A stretch of DNA of 19,225 bases, taken from NCBI GenBank assembly GCA_003697085.1, contig RFFU01000017.1, positions 1-19,225 of the forward strand, written 5' to 3'. Below, piece after piece: positions 140-19,225 of this stretch; positions within the stretch are counted from its first letter, which is position 1; each line of letters starts with the position of its first letter. Below the pieces are notes generated by a model, which was not told the DNA's origin, made no database searches, and saw nothing but the letters and a program-made list of their open reading frames with translations. The position numbers and the translations under genes are program-made. This DNA is from Candidatus Hydrogenedentota bacterium (GTDB taxonomy: Bacteria; UBA8481; J006).

Positions 140-1081
140 GTGGTGGGCGACCGGAAATCCGATATGTCGTATGAAACTCAAAGGGGATCGAAAAATTTCC
201 ATCCGCCTTCTCCCGTAAAAACGAGACGCTTTCAGACGACGTTTATCGCGTTGGGAACTCTTCTTCTTTTTGGGGCCGTCACCGATATGTTCCTTCTGAT
301 CCGGCGGGAAGTTCTTCTGACCGAAGTTCATCCCCTCCAGCATCTATCCGTCGATAACAAAAAAATCGTTCTGTGCGAAACAAATCATGTACACATATTC
401 GATCTCAACGGGAAGAAGATCGCGTCCTTTAAGACGGCCGGAAAGGATTACATCGAGGCCGTTTCGGGAAGAGACAATACGGTTTGGGTAGCGGATAAAG
501 GGAACAGGCGCCTACTCCATTACGATATGGACGGTAATCTTATTCGAGAAATTAAGGACAACCGGCTCGTCTTGGACTTTCATCTCCGCGTGTCTCCAAG
601 AGATGAACTGTGGGTTATGAACACGACTGGCCACGAGATACGTCGCTATTCTTCGGCCGGTGAGTTTTTGGGCCTCTTTCCCGGGAAAAAGAAACCTCCC
701 CGGCTCTTGCGAAAATATTTGCGCAACAGAGGCATTGGCCCGCAGGAATATGCTCACTTTTACCCGCGAGACGTTGCGTGGGGATCGCACGGAGAAATCT
801 TCGTTGCGGAACACTCCTGGAAACTGGTGACAGTGTGGAACGACACGGGGGAGTTCCTCAGGGCGTTTCCCCTTCGGGCTGAAATCAACGGGAAAGAGGA
901 TTGCTGGCCGCATGATTTTGGTGGACTGCCAAGTACCACGGTAGGTGGAAAAAAAACTTGTGGAGATGCCGCTGGGCGGGTCAGGGGAGGGAACGATAAT
1001 ATTCCCTTCAGGTTTCACCGCGGCCAACATCCTTGCGGGACCGCTTGGCTGTCCGAGTATGCTGGCGAGTTCGGGCGATAG
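140..1081 (+). CDS. N-terminal fragment: membrane anchor plus NHL-like beta-propeller
   Basis: This open frame of 313 codons starts at GTG 140, with an in-frame ATG at 164 as an equally plausible start; neither has a well-placed ribosome binding site. Residues about 33-53 form a hydrophobic helix (signal anchor). Residues about 65-250 contain repeating beta-propeller blades of the NHL/6-bladed type, with motifs such as VWVADKGNRRLLHYDMDG, LWVMNTTGHEIRRYSSAG and IFVAEHSWKLVTVWNDTG. The final 45-60 residues look out of frame: the propeller continues in the next forward frame, where a strand RMILVD can be read at 909-926. The fragment is the front part of the broken gene covering 140-3606 and is probably not functional alone. 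It could be a real secreted propeller if slippage occurs, which I consider less likely. Confidence 0.5.
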   Translation: MVGDRKSDMSYETQRGSKNFHPPSPVKTRRFQTTFIALGTLLLFGAVTDMFLLIRREVLLTEVHPLQHLSVDNKKIVLCETNHVHIFDLNGKKIASFKTAGKDYIEAVSGRDNTVWVADKGNRRLLHYDMDGNLIREIKDNRLVLDFHLRVSPRDELWVMNTTGHEIRRYSSAGEFLGLFPGKKKPPRLLRKYLRNRGIGPQEYAHFYPRDVAWGSHGEIFVAEHSWKLVTVWNDTGEFLRAFPLRAEINGKEDCWPHDFGGLPSTTVGGKKTCGDAAGRVRGGNDNIPFRFHRGQHPCGTAWLSEYAGEFGR

Positions 1082-3047
1082 TCTGTTTGTTCTGGCGGTT
1101 GAAGGGGGAGGATTCAATTTCGGCGATGTGTATTCGATTTCAGGTGATCTGATCCGAACGCACCTGCGGATTCCGGAGTCTCTTCGCCCCTTCGACGCCT
1201 CCTCCTTTGGAATCGTGAAGAATACGCTTCTGGTGCTCGACCACGACCAATCTCAAATTGCCGCCTTTTCGCCGGACGGACGATTAACCGGGCGGTTTCA
1301 GGAGTCGGATCTGTTTCGTACCGTTCGGGAGGTTCGCCGGCGAAGACAAACAGCAGGGGAACGAAGACCGTGGTTGATGGGTGGTTTTGTCGTGTTGCTT
1401 TTGCTCTCGCTGGTCGCTCTCTTTTTGGGGCTTAAGGACCGCTTCGGGAAGAGGCCGACGGCACTGGAGCAGGACAGTTCTCAGATTGTTGCCTGGGGGA
1501 AGGCTTTCGTCTCGGCCTTGATTCCCGCAGCGTTGCTTTCGTTTTTCACCATCGGATTCGTTACCATGATTAACCCGAGCGAAGTGGATTCCGTTCGGGA
1601 GTGGTTTCCTCCGACCGGGTTACTCCTGATCTTCTTGAGCACGGTCATTATTAAGTGGAGGTATATGGAACGCCGGAGGAAGCCACCATCTGAGAAGACA
1701 TTGTCGCCAGCCCGGGTTACCGCGGATCGCTCAACAACGATCAAGCAATACCTGATTGCGGCGGCCGTTGCTTTTGTCGCGTTTCCACTGATTGGTTCCT
1801 TCACAATGTTGTACCCCCTTTTCCTTCCCTTCGGTTGGGGGATTGTCGGACTTGTCCTCCTGCCGCCCCTCCTCTTCGTTCTTTCCACGGTCACTATCAA
1901 AATACTGTTGGTCGAAAGAATTTGGGGACGACTGGCGTCGGCGCCCGTGTGTGAGTCGGAAACGAAAACGTTATCCTCGGATTTGCGAGATTCCGGGAAA
2001 GATCCCGCTTCCGTTCCCGATCCCGAACTCGCACCCTCTCCCGTTTCCGTCCCGTCAAAGTCCAAAGTCCCGTTGGCACTTCATCAGGTGATTCTCATTT
2101 CCCTTATGATTCAGTTGTTCTTTTTCAACATCGAATGGGAGTTTTTGGTTTTGGTTCTTCTGGCTACCGGTTTACGGAGTTTTTCAGGGTTCATGTCGGG
2201 TGGCACGGAGGGGATCATCGCTTTCCTGATCGGTTACGCGTTCGTTTTTGTTTTGGTTCGCCGATACGGTCGCCGATCCCCGCCGGACGAATCAAGAGTT
2301 GTCGATGTTTGGCGGGACCGATTGTTGAGCGCCTCCAGAATCATCGCGTCGATTTCCGGCGGCTATACCAGTCTGAGGATCGGGATGAGTTGCTATAAGG
2401 TGATGGCGCTTGACTCCCGGCCCGGTTACTTCGGTAATGGCGTCGTCACGGCTGTAATCGATTCCCTTCGCGGAGGAGTGATCGTGGGATGCCTGGTTTT
2501 TGGTGCTCTTTATCTGCTGATCGGTCTTTCTATGAAGTTCCGGCAAAGTGTGACGGCGGGGACAACCAAGAGTGCGACGCAGAGGTTTCTCGTGGGCGCA
2601 ATTCCGGCCGCGATCGTTATCCTCCTCTCGTTCCTCGTTTTCGGAGGGCGACCGCGCTACCCCGGTTTTGGATATGCGTCACTCTTCTTTGGCTTCGGCC
2701 TGTCCGTTTTTGGGATGCCGTTGTTTCTCGTATGGATAGCGATTCGCGCGCTGGGGGTCAAAAAAGGCGCCTCCCTGGATTCTTGCAGCCGCATGGCTTC
2801 TCCTCGGCATCGGTTCTCTCTTCATGCTTGGTCGAGGTTCTCTCTTCCTTATCGTCGTCCCGGCGTTCCTGTGTTCCTCCGCTACTCTTATTTCCGAGGC
2901 AATCGATTTCCGGCTTCTGCCCGCGGTAAGAAGGAAACGGTTGGCGTGGGGGGGGCCTCGTGTTGGTCGCCTTTCCAGTGCTGTTCCACTTTGTCAGCGC
3001 CCCCCGCGTTCGGCAGGGAGAGTGGATTGCGGTTGAGGGCACGGTGA
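945..3047 (+). CDS. Central fragment: end of propeller plus polytopic membrane domain
   Basis: This open frame of 700 codons begins at GTG 945, directly after a TAG at 942-944. Its first 120 residues are still beta-propeller (for example TLLVLDHDQSQIAAFSPDGR), so this is not a natural N-terminus. From residue about 145 there are some eleven hydrophobic helices, starting with the helix containing GGFVVLLLLSLVALFLGL. Two-helix units appear to repeat: FLSTVIIKW followed by ME and VLSTVTIKI followed by VE occupy equivalent places, and a third SALIPAAL/GAIPAAI-like unit occurs near the end. After residue about 605 (base 2760) the frame loses membrane character and becomes rich in Ser, Arg and Cys. 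The true continuation is in the next frame, so the last 95 codons are spurious. No transporter or enzyme family is recognised. Confidence 0.5.
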   Translation: MEKKLVEMPLGGSGEGTIIFPSGFTAANILAGPLGCPSMLASSGDSLFVLAVEGGGFNFGDVYSISGDLIRTHLRIPESLRPFDASSFGIVKNTLLVLDHDQSQIAAFSPDGRLTGRFQESDLFRTVREVRRRRQTAGERRPWLMGGFVVLLLLSLVALFLGLKDRFGKRPTALEQDSSQIVAWGKAFVSALIPAALLSFFTIGFVTMINPSEVDSVREWFPPTGLLLIFLSTVIIKWRYMERRRKPPSEKTLSPARVTADRSTTIKQYLIAAAVAFVAFPLIGSFTMLYPLFLPFGWGIVGLVLLPPLLFVLSTVTIKILLVERIWGRLASAPVCESETKTLSSDLRDSGKDPASVPDPELAPSPVSVPSKSKVPLALHQVILISLMIQLFFFNIEWEFLVLVLLATGLRSFSGFMSGGTEGIIAFLIGYAFVFVLVRRYGRRSPPDESRVVDVWRDRLLSASRIIASISGGYTSLRIGMSCYKVMALDSRPGYFGNGVVTAVIDSLRGGVIVGCLVFGALYLLIGLSMKFRQSVTAGTTKSATQRFLVGAIPAAIVILLSFLVFGGRPRYPGFGYASLFFGFGLSVFGMPLFLVWIAIRALGVKKGASLDSCSRMASPRHRFSLHAWSRFSLPYRRPGVPVFLRYSYFRGNRFPASARGKKETVGVGGASCWSPFQCCSTLSAPPAFGRESGLRLRAR
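2764..3036 (+). pseudogene. Frame-shifted continuation of the membrane domain
   Basis: After the A6 run at 2760-2765 the frame beginning at 2764 reads KAPPWILAAAWLLLGIGSLF and then a second helix around SLFLIVVPAFLCSSATL. These are two more membrane helices that fit directly onto the end of the preceding membrane domain. This frame loses sense after the G8 run at 2948-2955. The following frame then reads GLVLVAFPVLFHFVSA and an extracytoplasmic stretch containing IAVEGTVRLEGE (to about 3088), which is the first strand of the C-terminal beta domain. It has no start site of its own. It is listed separately because it proves that coding sense continues in a different frame. Confidence 0.5.
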
Positions 3048-3120
3048 GGTTGGAAGGGGAAACGGATCACGGTGGAGTGCGAGTGAGATAAGGGAACGTT
3101 ATCAAGGCATCGATGAGGAA

Positions 3121-3606
3121 GTGCCCGGTGCTCAAGCCACCACTGATTCCTCTGGACGCTACCGAATCGTCAGGTTTCTTCCGCGTGACGGCGAAAAAAT
3201 GTTACGTGGTCCCGCTTTTTCTGGCCCCTCCGGCGTACTGGTGTTTGAGAAGAAAGGTTTTGAAGTTCGCAGGAGATCGGGAATTTCCGAGGGGGTTCTC
3301 GGAACAGCTTCCGATACCCCGTACAAGTGTTTTCGGGTGGATCCGCTTGTGATGCCGAAAAAATCAAAAGCCATTCGCGCGTTTCTAACGTCGTGGGACG
3401 ATTGGAGAAACCGCAGAACGGTATTCCGGCCCACCTCCTGGCCGCGTGAAATTTTTGGGACTCCATTGGACGGGGAACTGCGGTTTTATCTATACGCGAA
3501 CAGTTACGACAAGCCGCCGTTATCGGACTCCGAAGCGGCGCATATCATTTCGCTCTGGCCTTCGCCCGTGCCCGAGGAGGTGGCGGATCTGGAGATATCG
3601 GAATGA
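3121..3606 (+). CDS. C-terminal fragment: carboxypeptidase-regulatory/CnaB-like domain
   Basis: This 161-codon open frame starts at GTG 3121, but coding sense extends upstream in the same frame to about 3088 (IRERYQGIDEE). The sequence VPGAQATTDSSGRYRI is the typical signature of the small beta-sandwich carboxypeptidase-regulatory-like/CnaB-like domains, followed by a strand LVFEKKGFEV. The remaining 90 residues are polar and unrecognised, with several Trp and Pro. It ends at TGA 3604-3606, about 95 bases before a strong intrinsic terminator. There is no ribosome binding site in front of 3121, so independent translation is doubtful. I read it as the C-terminus of the broken gene starting at 140, sitting outside the membrane as a binding or spacer module. 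Confidence 0.5.
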   Translation: MPGAQATTDSSGRYRIVRFLPRDGEKMLRGPAFSGPSGVLVFEKKGFEVRRRSGISEGVLGTASDTPYKCFRVDPLVMPKKSKAIRAFLTSWDDWRNRRTVFRPTSWPREIFGTPLDGELRFYLYANSYDKPPLSDSEAAHIISLWPSPVPEEVADLEISE

Positions 3607-3701: not shown

Positions 3702-3742
3702 GGCGGCCGGGCGGAGACGCCCGGCCCGCCGTTTTTGTTTTT
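3702..3742 (+). terminator. Intrinsic terminator
   Basis: A perfect 9-bp GC stem (GGCCGGGCG at 3705-3713 with CGCCCGGCC at 3718-3726) closes a GAGA tetraloop. Three further pairs (3702-3704 with 3728-3730) form if C3727 is bulged. The T-rich tract TTTTTGTTTTT at 3732-3742 follows one base later. The orientation serves the broken gene upstream and separates it from the genes to the right. Confidence 0.88.
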
Positions 3743-3845: not shown

Positions 3846-4343
3846 GTGACGGGTGGCCGGTGTTGGGGAGATAAAAGTGAAGGTTGTTGTGAGGGCTTTT
3901 GCCGGGTGTCCGGATCTTCAGAACGCCGAGAAAGTATTGCGGCAGTGAATCATCTCCGGACGGAGGGCAGGAATTTCCTTGCCACCGTCGTATTCTCTTC
4001 CTTGAGCGGGATTCTTTTCGCGATACTGGTTCCCTGGTTCGCGTTGTTGGACGTTATGCTGATGGACAGTGGTTATCAGGCAGGACCCGAAGGCATCACA
4101 AATCAAATTAAACTGACCAATTATCCCGCTCTCGCCAGCGTGCTTATCCTGGCGCTGGTGATGGTCGGGCTTGGGCTTTACGGTCTTTCGGAAGATTCTC
4201 GAGAGGTTCGCGTTTCCGGCCGCGTCAGAATCCTGCCCGAATTTCCAGCCGGTGCACGCATCCCGCCTGCGGGAAGGAAGCGAGGGTTCTCCAACCTGGG
4301 AGCGGGTAGCGCGGGCATCTTGCCTGCAAAAACAGGTTCGTAG
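3846..4343 (+). CDS. Hypothetical small membrane protein, start uncertain
   Basis: This 165-codon frame contains two clear membrane helices, about residues 45-68 (ATVVFSSLSGILFAILVPWF) and about 97-115 (ALASVLILALVMVGLGLYGL). They are separated by a polar loop of about 28 residues. No family is recognised. The GTG at 3846 has an AGGAGG 8 bases upstream. However, residues 1-33 look non-coding, and an internal GTG at 3945 would give a more compact 132-residue protein starting just before the first helix. The last 45 residues are made from dispersed repeat sequence: the palindrome GCGGGCATCTTGCCTGC at 4311-4327 encodes AGILPA. The original C-terminus may therefore have been replaced by a repeat insertion. 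It stands alone between a terminator and a long gene-free stretch. It may be a decaying gene. Confidence 0.45.
   Translation: MTGGRCWGDKSEGCCEGFCRVSGSSERRESIAAVNHLRTEGRNFLATVVFSSLSGILFAILVPWFALLDVMLMDSGYQAGPEGITNQIKLTNYPALASVLILALVMVGLGLYGLSEDSREVRVSGRVRILPEFPAGARIPPAGRKRGFSNLGAGSAGILPAKTGS
3877..3948 (+). CDS. Possible 23-residue leader ORF
   Basis: GTG 3877 is preceded by GGGGAG with a 6-base gap and opens a 23-codon frame, read as MKVVVRAFAGCPDLQNAEKV plus three residues. It ends at TGA 3946-3948, so its stop overlaps the GTG at 3945 of the membrane-protein frame (GTGA). The peptide looks more natural than the overlapping frame read from 3846. It could be a translated leader coupled to the membrane protein, or its original N-terminus separated by a one-base indel near 3945. 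The evidence is only the ribosome-binding-like site, the composition and the overlap. Confidence 0.25.
   Translation: MKVVVRAFAGCPDLQNAEKVLRQ
4261..4327. repeat. Dispersed palindromic repeats (first location)
   Basis: Two small palindromes lie close together: TCCCGCCTGCGGGA at 4261-4274 and GCGGGCATCTTGCCTGC at 4311-4327, the latter a 7-bp stem with one G-T pair and a TCT loop. The second matches, on the opposite strand and with two differences over 17 bases, the palindrome at 19045-19061. They overlap the 3' end of the small membrane-protein gene. Confidence 0.6.
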
Positions 4344-4992
4344 AGGATCAACTTTCGGACTCCCGATCCTTTGCGGCGTTTCGCCCACGAGTAGACTAAC
4401 CCGATCCGGCAAAAGGTGCCCATTTTTCGCCATGCCCCCCGTGACGAGATAGTCCGCCGGTATTCAAAAGGACGTACCGCTCCTGTGCTTGGAATCATTG
4501 AGATCATGACGTTCTTTCCCCGGTCGGCTTACTCGGACCTTCCCCTATTGCCCCACCTCGGCTGACACTCGTTTTGATTCTTCTCCCCGGAAGAAATTTT
4601 TTCTAAACCGGTTTCCACCGATCTACCTCTCTTCCATTCGGAGAGAAATCACGGTTTGAAAGCGTTACGAAAAAATGCCCGGAAGCATAACCCTTTGTTC
4701 GACTGAAAAACCTGTGTTCCATTGAAGATATTTTCGCCGAGAACGAAGGACATGTGTCTTGGCCGGAACTGTTGCGGATTTGTGAAACCTGATTTAGGCG
4801 AAAAAATACACCGGCACCGCACGCTACCGAGTCCCCCTCCAAAAAAACTTATCCCTTTTGTTCGTGAAATAATAAGAAATCAAAAGAAATGAAATGAGAG
4901 ATTTGGAAATATGACTTGATGGCGACGAAATTGACAAAATGGAAGAATGACACCTTTTTTCCACAGGTTGTTAAGGGGGTTCGGAGGGTTTC
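4344..4992. other. Long gene-free stretch before the mraZ promoter
   Basis: No open frame with protein-like composition, RNA gene or clear terminator is visible on either strand in these roughly 650 bases. The part from about 4850 onward is visibly richer in A and T than its surroundings. A TTTTCCACA at 4957-4965 is one base from the TTATCCACA DnaA-box consensus, but it is single and unsupported. Confidence 0.5.
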
Positions 4993-5546: not shown

Positions 5547-6572
5547 ATGACGACGCGCCATCTTCCCGTTCTCCCGGCGCTCGTAAGAAACCTCTTTCTC
5601 GATGAGCCCCGACGTGTCCGCCGTATCCTCGATGCCACCTGCGGCGGCGGAGGCCACGCGCGGATTTTGGCGGAAGCGGGACACGCCGTAATTGCGCTCG
5701 ATCGCGACCCCCGTGCGATCGAAATCGCGCGCGAAAACCTCGGCGACCTCGCACTACCCCCTCCGTCCGCTTCTCGGCAGCCGCCGAATCCCGTTCCCGG
5801 GCGCGTTCTTCTTCTGAACCGCTGCTTTTCCGATTGTACCGACCTCGCTCCTCTGGATGGCGTCGTCGCCGACCTTGGTCTCTCTTCCGATCAACTCGCC
5901 GATTCCGAACGCGGATTCTCGTTTCGGGCCGACGGGCCGCTGGATATGCGGATGGATCCCCGCGCCGGCCGCACGGCGGCGGAATTCATCGCCGAGGGAC
6001 GTCCGGAGGAATTGGAGCGGATTCTCCGTTTGTACGGCGAGGAGCGCTCGTCCCGTCTCCTGGCCCGCAGGTTGTCCGGCCGTTCCTTCGCCTCCGCCGA
6101 AGCGTTGGCCGAGGAGATCGCTCGGATCGTTCGGCGTTCGCGACGGATCCGTCGCGGGCGTATTCATCCCGCGACCCGTGTTTTTCAAGCGTTACGGATC
6201 GCCGTCAACGACGAACTGGGGGAATTGGAGCGTTTTCTGGAGCGGTTGCCGCCTCTGCTGTCTCCCGGCGCGCGGGTTCTCGTAATCACCTTTCATTCGT
6301 TGGAGGATCGGATCGTCAAGAGGGTCTTTCGCAACTGGACGCGTTCCGTTCCTCGGGGCTCCGGTCTGTTCCGGGAGCGATCCGGCGGAACGAAGGCGGA
6401 GGATACTGTTCCAAGGGCATGCTGCGACCGGAAAATGTCGGAAATGAAACGCGCGGTTTTCCTTTGGAAGGGTGTGAAACGTGCCGATGAAAAGGAGAGG
6501 CGGGCCAATCCGCGGTCGCGATCCGCGAAGGCCCGCGCCGTGGAAATCATCACAGCCGGGTACGAAGAATGA
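5547..6572 (+). CDS. rsmH: 16S rRNA (cytosine1402-N4)-methyltransferase RsmH
   Basis: RsmH (MraW) uses S-adenosylmethionine to methylate N4 of C1402 in the decoding centre of 16S rRNA. The 341-residue product shows the SAM-binding motif LDATCGGGGHA (residues 28-38) and an acidic residue after the second strand (ALDRDPRAI). The family block ADLGLSSDQL...RGFSF...GPLDMRMDP is present, as are ITFHSLEDRIVK and the C-terminal NPRSRSAKAR. ATG 5547 is chosen because the conserved HLPVL motif follows immediately; upstream codons in this frame overlap mraZ and have no family resemblance. No strong ribosome binding site precedes it, so translation probably depends on coupling with mraZ. Its stop overlaps the ftsL start as ATGA. 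At 341 residues it is somewhat longer than the usual 310-315, because of extra residues around 75-90. Confidence 0.95.
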   Translation: MTTRHLPVLPALVRNLFLDEPRRVRRILDATCGGGGHARILAEAGHAVIALDRDPRAIEIARENLGDLALPPPSASRQPPNPVPGRVLLLNRCFSDCTDLAPLDGVVADLGLSSDQLADSERGFSFRADGPLDMRMDPRAGRTAAEFIAEGRPEELERILRLYGEERSSRLLARRLSGRSFASAEALAEEIARIVRRSRRIRRGRIHPATRVFQALRIAVNDELGELERFLERLPPLLSPGARVLVITFHSLEDRIVKRVFRNWTRSVPRGSGLFRERSGGTKAEDTVPRACCDRKMSEMKRAVFLWKGVKRADEKERRANPRSRSAKARAVEIITAGYEE

Positions 6573-12307: not shown

Positions 12308-13446
12308 AGCCAAGGCGCCGGCACCGGGAAACTCTCTTTCCTCCCGATGCTTTTCTCGTTACAACGACACTTTTTCTCATGGCGGTGGGATTCATCTTCG
12401 TCTATTCCGCCGGTGTGATGAAGGCCGAAATCTACTACGGTTCCACCTCGCACTTTCTCGTTCGCCAGGCTTTGGCGGCGGTGATCGGTATCGTGACGAT
12501 GATCGTTCTTTCCCGCATTCCGGCCGACCTTCTCGAGCGGGCGGCGGGACCGTTTGCGATCCTGACGTTCCTCCTTCTCTTTCTCGTCCTGATTCCCGGG
12601 GTGGGGATTAAGATCAGTGGAGCGCGGAGGTGGCTGCCGATGCCCTTGCTGGGCCGCTTTCAGCCTTCTGAATTCGCCCGCCTGGCGGTCGTCATCGTCG
12701 TGGCACGTTACGTGGCGCGCAACGGAGAAGAGATCGGAACGTGGACAGGTGTCGGCAAGATGCTTCTCCCCCCCCTCCTCTTTTTTCTCCTCATCGTCGC
12801 CGAACCAGACTTCGATACGGCCATGATGATTCCGGCGCTGGCGCTCGTCATCCTTTTCGTGGCCGGCCTTCCCTGGAGGATTCTGACGGGGATCGTGGGC
12901 GTCCTTCTCGCCGGCGCCGCCGCCCTCGTCGCCGCGGCACCCTATCGGCTTGAACGAATCCGCGGCTTTCTCGACCCCTGGTCCGATGTTCAGGGAAAAG
13001 GCTACCACATCATTCAGGGTTGGACGGCGATGGGGTCCGGCGGCCTCTTCGGAAAAGGAATCGGACAAGGAGTGCAGAAGTACGGGTTCCTGCCGGAGCC
13101 GCACACGGATTTCATCTTCGCCGTGATCGGAGAGGAGATCGGATTGATCGGAACGGTGCTCGTGACCGCGGGGTTCATCGTACTGGCGTGGAGAGGGTAT
13201 CGGGCCGCGCTGGAACAGAAGGAACCCTTTGCACGCTATGCGGCGGCGGGCGTGACGGCGTTGATTACGGGTCAGGCTCTTTTGAATATGATGGTCGTCA
13301 CAGGGCTTGCGCCCACGACGGGAGTTCCCCTGCCGCTCATTTCCTATGGGGGAACGAGCATCGTCTTCACCTGCGCCGCCATCGGAATTCTCTTGAACTT
13401 CTCGCGGCGCCGTGTCTCATCCGGCAACGGAAGGTTCGGAGGATGA
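12304..13446 (+). CDS. ftsW: SEDS peptidoglycan glycosyltransferase FtsW
   Basis: FtsW is the septal SEDS-family polymerase that links lipid II disaccharides into glycan strands and normally works with the class B penicillin-binding protein FtsI. The 380-residue product is polytopic, with about ten helices. It carries the SEDS signatures GARRWLP followed by FQPSEFARLA, the region around AEPDFDTAMM, the periplasmic loop GKGIGQGVQKYGFLPEPHTD with FIFAVIGEEIG, and the C-terminal PLISYGGTS. FtsW rather than RodA is inferred from its place in the dcw cluster. The ATG at 12304 follows a strong purine-rich ribosome binding site. Its stop overlaps the murG start (ATGA). No ftsI is present in this cluster, so its transpeptidase partner must be encoded elsewhere. 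Confidence 0.94.
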   Translation: MKPRRRHRETLFPPDAFLVTTTLFLMAVGFIFVYSAGVMKAEIYYGSTSHFLVRQALAAVIGIVTMIVLSRIPADLLERAAGPFAILTFLLLFLVLIPGVGIKISGARRWLPMPLLGRFQPSEFARLAVVIVVARYVARNGEEIGTWTGVGKMLLPPLLFFLLIVAEPDFDTAMMIPALALVILFVAGLPWRILTGIVGVLLAGAAALVAAAPYRLERIRGFLDPWSDVQGKGYHIIQGWTAMGSGGLFGKGIGQGVQKYGFLPEPHTDFIFAVIGEEIGLIGTVLVTAGFIVLAWRGYRAALEQKEPFARYAAAGVTALITGQALLNMMVVTGLAPTTGVPLPLISYGGTSIVFTCAAIGILLNFSRRRVSSGNGRFGG

Positions 13447-14513: not shown

Positions 14514-15913
14514 TTCGTGTTCAAAAGATTCACTTCGTCGGGATCGGCGGAGTCGGAATGAGCGGGATCGCGGAGATCCTGCTCGATACCGGGTACGATG
14601 TCACGGGGTCCGATATTGCGGACAATCCCACGATCCACCGGCTCAAGGATCTCGGCGCGGTCATCCACCTCGGTCACCGGGCGGAAAACGTCGAGGAGGC
14701 CGACGCCGTCGTGATCTCCTCGGCGATCAGTCCGGGAAACGTGGAGGTGTTGGCGGCGCGGGAACGCGGCATCCCGGTCGTCAGAAGAGCCGAGATGCTG
14801 GCGGAGTTGATGCGCCTCAAATACGGGATCGCGATTGCGGGAACGCACGGGAAAACCACAACGACATCCCTTGTTGCGATGGTTCTTACGGAGGGGGGGA
14901 TCGACCCGACCGTCGTTATCGGAGGAAGACTCGAACAGTTGGGAAGCGGTGCGAAGGTGGGAGCCGGAGAGTATCTCGTGGCCGAGGCGGACGAATCCGA
15001 CGGCTCGTTTCTCAAACTCAGCCCCGCCGTCGCCGTCGTGACGAACATCGACGACGATCACCTCGATTTCTACGGCGATATGGGACGGCTTGCCGCCACC
15101 TTCGGAGAGTTCTGCAACCGCGTTCCCTTCTACGGCTTCGCGTTGCTCTGCAGCGACGATCCCCGTCTCCGCGGTATCGCCTCCTTGTGCAGCCGACGTG
15201 TCGTGACATTCGGGCTCGGTGAGCAGGCCGATTACCGCGCCGACCGGATCGAGACGACCGAGGAAGGAAGTCGATTTCGAATTCTGCAGCGGGGGGATGA
15301 GATGGCGGAGGTTTCGTTGAGATTGGTCGGGATCCACAATGTAACAAACGCGCTCGCCGCGGCCGCCGTGGGGATCGAGTTGGGATTGGAACCGGCGGCG
15401 GTCGTGGCCGGCTTGGAACGATTTCGCGGCGTCGACCGGAGGATGCAGTTGAAGGGCAAAGGACCGGGGGAGTCGCCGTGGCGCGTGTATGACGATTACG
15501 CCCACCATCCGACGGAGATCACGGCGACGCTGGCGGCGGCGCGCGCGCTGGCGCGGGGCGGACGATTGCTCGTCGTCTTCCAGCCCCACCGCTATTCCCG
15601 AACCGCGCTCCTCTACGAAAAACTCGCGGCGGCCTTGACCGCCGCCGATCGTCTCTGGCTCTTGCCCGTCTATCCTGCCGGTGAAGAGCCGCGGGAGGGG
15701 GTGTCCAGCGGATTGATCGCCGAAGCGTTGCGATTGAAAGGCTATTCCTCCTTTACCGAAATCGAGGGAGACGCGCGGGCGGCAGCAGGAGAAATCGCCC
15801 GGATTCTGGAACCACGCGATCTGCTTTTGACACTCGGTGCTGGAGACGTCTGGAAGATCGGTGAGGAGATATTGCGACTCTCCGCCGTGCGGCCGGAAAG
15901 GAAGAGTGCTTAA
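14510..15913 (+). CDS. murC: UDP-N-acetylmuramate--L-alanine ligase MurC
   Basis: MurC attaches L-alanine, the first residue of the stem peptide, to UDP-MurNAc with ATP. The 467-residue product begins with HFVGIGGVGMSGIAEIL (8-24). It has the MurC-type P-loop GTHGKTTTT (111-119), where histidine replaces the asparagine of the other Mur ligases. The sequence continues with VAEADESDGSFLKL, TNIDDDHLDFY, HNVTNALAAAA, YDDYAHHPTEI, FQPHRYSRT and LTLGAGDVWKIGEEI. These place it firmly as MurC and not Mpl. The start overlaps the murG stop, and the stop shares one base with the murB start (TAATG). A seven-G run near 14889 is kept in frame here, useful when judging the frame changes in the first gene of the window. 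Confidence 0.96.
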   Translation: MIRVQKIHFVGIGGVGMSGIAEILLDTGYDVTGSDIADNPTIHRLKDLGAVIHLGHRAENVEEADAVVISSAISPGNVEVLAARERGIPVVRRAEMLAELMRLKYGIAIAGTHGKTTTTSLVAMVLTEGGIDPTVVIGGRLEQLGSGAKVGAGEYLVAEADESDGSFLKLSPAVAVVTNIDDDHLDFYGDMGRLAATFGEFCNRVPFYGFALLCSDDPRLRGIASLCSRRVVTFGLGEQADYRADRIETTEEGSRFRILQRGDEMAEVSLRLVGIHNVTNALAAAAVGIELGLEPAAVVAGLERFRGVDRRMQLKGKGPGESPWRVYDDYAHHPTEITATLAAARALARGGRLLVVFQPHRYSRTALLYEKLAAALTAADRLWLLPVYPAGEEPREGVSSGLIAEALRLKGYSSFTEIEGDARAAAGEIARILEPRDLLLTLGAGDVWKIGEEILRLSAVRPERKSA

Positions 15914-18873: not shown

Positions 18874-18987
18874 CCGTGAATTCCACGTGCTCGATTATTT
18901 TTCCAGTTTATCGTTTTTCGTTCACCGCTCTTCGTCCAACGTTTTTTGTTTCTTTGCCGAATCCTTTGGAATGTCGGCCCGTTCTTT

Positions 18988-19007
18988 CGCAGACTGGAGA
19001 GTCTGCG
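18988..19007. repeat. Perfect palindrome with 8-bp stem
   Basis: CGCAGACT and AGTCTGCG flank a GGAG loop. It is followed by CTCCG. It is similar in size and design to the palindrome 36 bases further on and probably belongs to the same kind of dispersed intergenic repeat. Confidence 0.6.
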
Positions 19008-19043
19008 CTCCGTATCTTCGCTGTCGGATGCGAACCGGTCTCC

Positions 19044-19062
19044 CGCAGGCAGGATGCCTGCG
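19044..19062. repeat. Dispersed palindromic repeat (second location)
   Basis: CGCAGGCA and TGCCTGCG flank a GGA loop, a perfect 8-bp stem. The 17-base core at 19045-19061 matches the reverse complement of 4311-4327 with two differences, so the same repeat family lies on both sides of the dcw cluster in opposite orientation. Confidence 0.65.
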
Positions 19063-19084
19063 CCACGGGGGGTGGCCCGCTCCG

Positions 19085-19137
19085 TGTCATTCCGAGGCGC
19101 GTCAGCGCCGAGGAATCCCCTCCACGTGGTATCCCGC
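19085..19137. repeat. Long intergenic repeat, copy 1
   Basis: It begins TGTCATTCCGAG (19085-19096) and ends with a 28-base unit at 19110-19137 starting GAGGAATCCCCTCCAC and closing with TATCCCGC. The middle GGCGCGTCAGCGCC is a small palindrome, and the outer ATTCC/GGAAT ends are also inverted, so the whole unit can fold. Confidence 0.65.
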
Positions 19138-19145
19138 AACTGCCC

Positions 19146-19215
19146 TGTCATTCCGAGCCCCTCGCATTCGCTCGGGACAGGCTCCGCGAGGAATCCCCTC
19201 CACAGGGTATCCCGC
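19146..19215. repeat. Long intergenic repeat, copy 2
   Basis: The first 12 bases (19146-19157) are identical to copy 1 and the last 28 bases (19188-19215) differ from copy 1 at two positions. The middle is longer and different, with CTCGCATTCGCTCGGGACAG. Conserved ends around a variable foldable centre suggest a mobile or duplicated intergenic element. The window ends 10 bases later, so further copies may follow. Confidence 0.65.
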
Positions 19216-19225
19216 CCCGTGGTGC

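Follow-up and report, generated by a model that had tools for sequence, protein, structure and literature searches.

The locus raises the question of whether a long gene, whose protein-like sequence passes through several reading frames beside a gene cluster in which every frame is open, was broken in the DNA of the organism or only in the assembled consensus. The window analysed comprised one whole contig of 19,225 nt from a draft genome (3.2 Mb in 145 contigs, 94.6% complete, 57% G+C). The broken gene starts 140 nt from the left end of this contig, which is no repeat. Most of the window is filled by the dcw (murein and division) cluster, the genes of which, named from their translations, we take to be in the usual order mraZ, mraW, ftsL, murE, murF, mraY, murD, ftsW, murG, murC, murB, ddl, and ftsQ. 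A terminator-like site 3′ of the broken gene, with only G-C pairs in its stem, would set this gene apart from the dcw cluster; terminator-like sites in the region were no more numerous than in shuffled sequences. Interspersed repeats common to many other contigs of the genome are located at 4305–4440, 4925–4960, and 18914–19225, and the right contig end sits inside the last of them. A small open frame with hydrophobic stretches (3945–4240) runs into the repeat at ~4305 and gave no family match above the cut-off.

Three-frame translation revealed a single protein-like path from 140 to 3603, which runs through frames 2-3-1-2-1 and is followed by a stop codon (Table 1). The limits of the four frame changes were set by stop codons alone, and codon-pair scores were trained on other genes of the same genome. 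The scores of the claimed frames of segments 1–5 were 15.4, 30.8, 1.2, 4.1, and 2.1, respectively, and the two alternative frames scored −5.5 to −253; for the short segments 3–5, the margin was small and weak by score alone. By hydropathy, it was the claimed frame alone that gave membrane helices in segment 3. These results confirmed the five segments in different frames that the original prediction had described, and the backward change that it had placed near 3077–3090 falls within the bracket of the fourth change. The coding signal thus carries on across frame changes that truncate the product, which is the pattern of a frameshift-type pseudogene, and no in-frame nonsense codon was found along the path of ~1,150 codons. 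The coding score is low for the genome (10th percentile for segment 1 and 2.5th percentile for segment 2), and GC3 is 0.56–0.62 in the two long segments versus 0.72–0.75 in the neighbouring genes, as for a weakly constrained accessory gene.

Table 1 Coordinates of the broken gene, its segments, the brackets of its frame changes, and the site downstream
Feature	Position	Strand	Evidence
Putative orphan propeller-membrane gene with four frame changes	140–3606	+	Frame tracks, stop brackets, no relatives in the genomes searched
Segment 1, frame 2, from GTG140: N-terminal membrane helix and first part of NHL-type propeller	140–948	+	Pfam NHL, phmmer, hydropathy
Segment 2, frame 3, from ~945–957: propeller-like stretch, ~ten or more membrane helices, proline-rich linker	957–2759	+	Codon scores, hydropathy
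Segment 3, frame 1, from ~2760: membrane helices	2767–2946	+	Hydropathy
Segment 4, frame 2, from ~2950: start of CarboxypepD_reg-like domain	2957–3088	+	Codon scores, weak Pfam match
Segment 5, frame 1, from ~3085: C-terminal domain and stop codon (3604–3606)	3091–3606	+	Open frame, codon score
Bracket of change 1 (frame 2 to 3), holds A8 (949–956)	945–1081	+	Stop codons at 942 and 1079
Bracket of change 2 (frame 3 to 1), holds A6 (2760–2765)	2740–3047	+	Stop codons at 2737 and 3045; beyond ~2767, helices in frame 1 only
Bracket of change 3 (frame 1 to 2), holds G8 (2948–2955)	2930–3036	+	Stop codons at 2927 and 3034
Bracket of change 4 (frame 2 back to 1), free of runs ≥6	3037–3091	+	Stop codons at 3034 and 3089; run list
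Terminator-like site 3′ of the broken gene	3705–3736	+	Stem with 9/9 G-C pairs, T tail

The results obtained for the encoded protein supported one of the two named domains. The propeller was borne out by one NHL repeat in segment 1 (PF01436, 24.4 bits versus the Pfam cut-off of 20) and by phmmer matches of this segment to NHL structures, with 9e-9 to the NHL region of Thin; a helix precedes it at residues 23–41 by hydropathy. To the eye, the propeller seems to continue into the start of segment 2. Joining segments 1 and 2 gave an NHL score of 22.2 bits versus 24.4 bits for segment 1 alone, so that profile evidence for a propeller is not increased by the second half. Hydropathy indicated ~ten or more helices in segment 2 and further helices in segment 3, and this membrane part matched no Pfam or NCBIfam family. 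The proposed CnaB domain is no more than a lead, from a sub-threshold match of the tail to CarboxypepD_reg (PF13620, 15.3 bits versus a cut-off of 32.3, E 0.027). The AlphaFold2 model of the middle segment alone reached a mean pLDDT of 45 and was not used. Judged by its anatomy, the intact protein would sit in the membrane and carry a propeller on one side.

Searches with the middle segment yielded no relative in its own genome, in 60 and 386 other genomes, in the single other genome searched from the phylum (two genomes in the set), or in the species collection, in which the scan reaches close relatives only. From these searches, the gene appears to be a lineage-specific orphan, and an architecture combining a propeller with ten or more helices stands without a relative in searches in which the phylum was represented by two genomes. 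A genome of the same order keeps mraZ-mraW-ftsL-murE, and its contig stops just upstream of mraZ, before the place where this gene would be expected.

The original prediction had put three of the frame changes at or near A8, A6, and G8 runs, all of which are present at 949–956, 2760–2765, and 2948–2955. In the sampled genome outside the broken gene, runs of eight or more occur at 0.09 per kb, or approximately one per 11 kb (94 in ~1.03 Mb). The brackets, which cover 489 nt, hold two such runs (A8 and G8) against 0.045 expected (P ~0.001), and this over-representation makes slippage, whether cellular or during sequencing, the likely origin of the changes at A8 and G8. The A6 run is no more than suggestive as a slippage site, since the genome has many runs of six (640 in 774 kb). 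As for the long runs that had been reported to stay in frame in the dcw cluster, the C8 run of ftsW is located at 12768–12775 as described, and the G7 run of murC, given as near 14889, exists at 14893–14899.

Whether long runs generally disturb the reading frame in this assembly was answered by a control made with a codon-pair hidden Markov model on stretches of 100 contigs of the same genome (1,034 kb in total). The frame is kept at 38 runs of eight or more that lie well inside coding segments in the first 774 kb, and in the whole sample only one convincing gene-internal frame change was found elsewhere, against four in 3.4 kb here. General homopolymer error was thus excluded, as had been argued from the in-frame runs, and frame changes are otherwise very rare in the sampled genome. 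The first detector recovered 281 of 300 simulated one-base indels, and the strict filter separating indels from gene boundaries passed 145 of the 300; the filter applied to the control candidates also overlooks the change at 945 in the broken gene itself. The true density elsewhere may therefore be twice that seen or more, yet far below four in 3.4 kb.

The single convincing case is a cheX-like gene on the minus strand of contig C40, the halves of which match CheX profile positions 1–52 and 52–94 in two frames; the change is located ~500 nt from the contig end and not at a run of six or more. Other internal candidates, read singly, were mostly gene boundaries or weak signals. Fourteen first-pass candidates were judged on inspection to be ordinary gene boundaries, and another list, of 26, consisted mostly of artefacts of the stop search in segments holding two genes. 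A further candidate is an RHS-like gene on contig C53, in which the coding model prefers another frame near 5599, within a glycine-rich stretch of low complexity.

The reading that we favour, with fair though far from complete confidence, is the recent decay of an orphan gene encoding a multi-pass membrane protein with an NHL propeller. According to this reading, the gene would have died recently: replication slippage at A8 and G8, possibly at A6 too, would have broken the frame, one further frame change would have arisen outside any run, and the neighbouring dcw genes would have remained intact meanwhile. We infer that the changes lie in the DNA of the organism, that they arose by slippage, and that production of the full protein has ceased. 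The clustered changes, the intact neighbours, the low coding score, and the lower GC3 are in keeping with an accessory gene that has fallen out of use. Since the long path carries no nonsense codon, the decay has to be recent. The same observation also counts against decay, in that substitutions left no nonsense mark and frame changes alone suit a consensus error equally; moreover, the gene ends a draft contig at an end that is not a repeat, and coverage there may be poor.

For this reason, the claim of decay rather than general homopolymer error, which the control backs, retains a local rival, namely that coverage was thin or of mixed strains where the first few kilobases of the contig were assembled, and that the changes are absent from the organism. 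We regard this as unlikely, albeit a possibility of real weight. The position of the gene at the end of a complete contig in a 145-contig draft, the path without nonsense codons, and the isolated change in cheX, which is also near a contig end, all agree with it, and the GeneTack authors attributed unclustered orphan frameshifted genes, once gene overlaps are set aside, partly to sequencing error and partly to indel mutation (PMC3711429). Against it, ~235 kb of coding sequence tested close to contig ends (within 4 kb) contained no other cluster of frame changes, the reading frame is kept at long runs elsewhere, and one site out of the four has no run. The contig sizes also suggest short reads, and short reads rarely err at runs of 6–8.

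Two further explanations keep the gene functional, and both fail because one change has no run. Phase variation, with A8 and/or G8 as contingency tracts that turn the gene on and off, and with the off state captured in the assembly, would account for two long runs inside the frame-change brackets of one membrane-protein gene, and we consider it improbable. By the count given above, runs of this length are nothing unusual for the genome, and in a phase-variable gene every change would lie at a hypermutable tandem tract, whereas here neither the change at a mere A6 nor the last one, in a bracket holding no run of six or more, would be switched in such a manner. Very improbable, in turn, is that transcriptional slippage at A8 and G8 rescues the gene, with some full-length protein being made as proposed for Blochmannia genes. 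In Blochmannia and Buchnera, single homopolymer-tract frameshifts may be, or are, corrected in this way (PMC3017870), but the precedent involves one indel in one tract of very AT-rich genomes, and here all four sites, including the one without a run, would have to be read past. The bolder proposal that several slippage sites gate a lineage-specific propeller-membrane protein, with the full product coming only from rare transcripts or cells, deserves even less credence. Finally, separate overlapping genes, to which the frame 3 GTG at 945 directly after a stop codon might point, were rejected as barely conceivable, given that propeller-like sequence would be cut in mid-domain at 945 and that no plausible start exists at the boundary of segment 3.

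Recent gene decay, the preferred reading, can be compared with systems already described, and the broken gene is a known kind of thing with nothing new in kind. Its propeller part resembles the NHL-repeat propeller proteins (PF01436), with one repeat above the cut-off and phmmer matches to NHL structures, and differs from them in being followed by ~ten or more helices without a Pfam or NCBIfam match. Note that an orphan gene of this type at a contig end can pass for a string of small proteins. The locus is similar to the GeneTack orphan singletons (PMC3711429), in which the coding signal of one gene switches frame and clustering relatives are lacking; unlike in those cases, four changes are present in one gene here. 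It also shares with the homopolymer-tract frameshifts of Blochmannia (PMC3017870) the feature that indels at single-base runs break otherwise readable genes. Unlike that reduced endosymbiont, the present genome has 57% G+C and 3.2 Mb, the runs are 6–8 long, several sites occur in one gene, and a rescue of the Blochmannia type is implausible.
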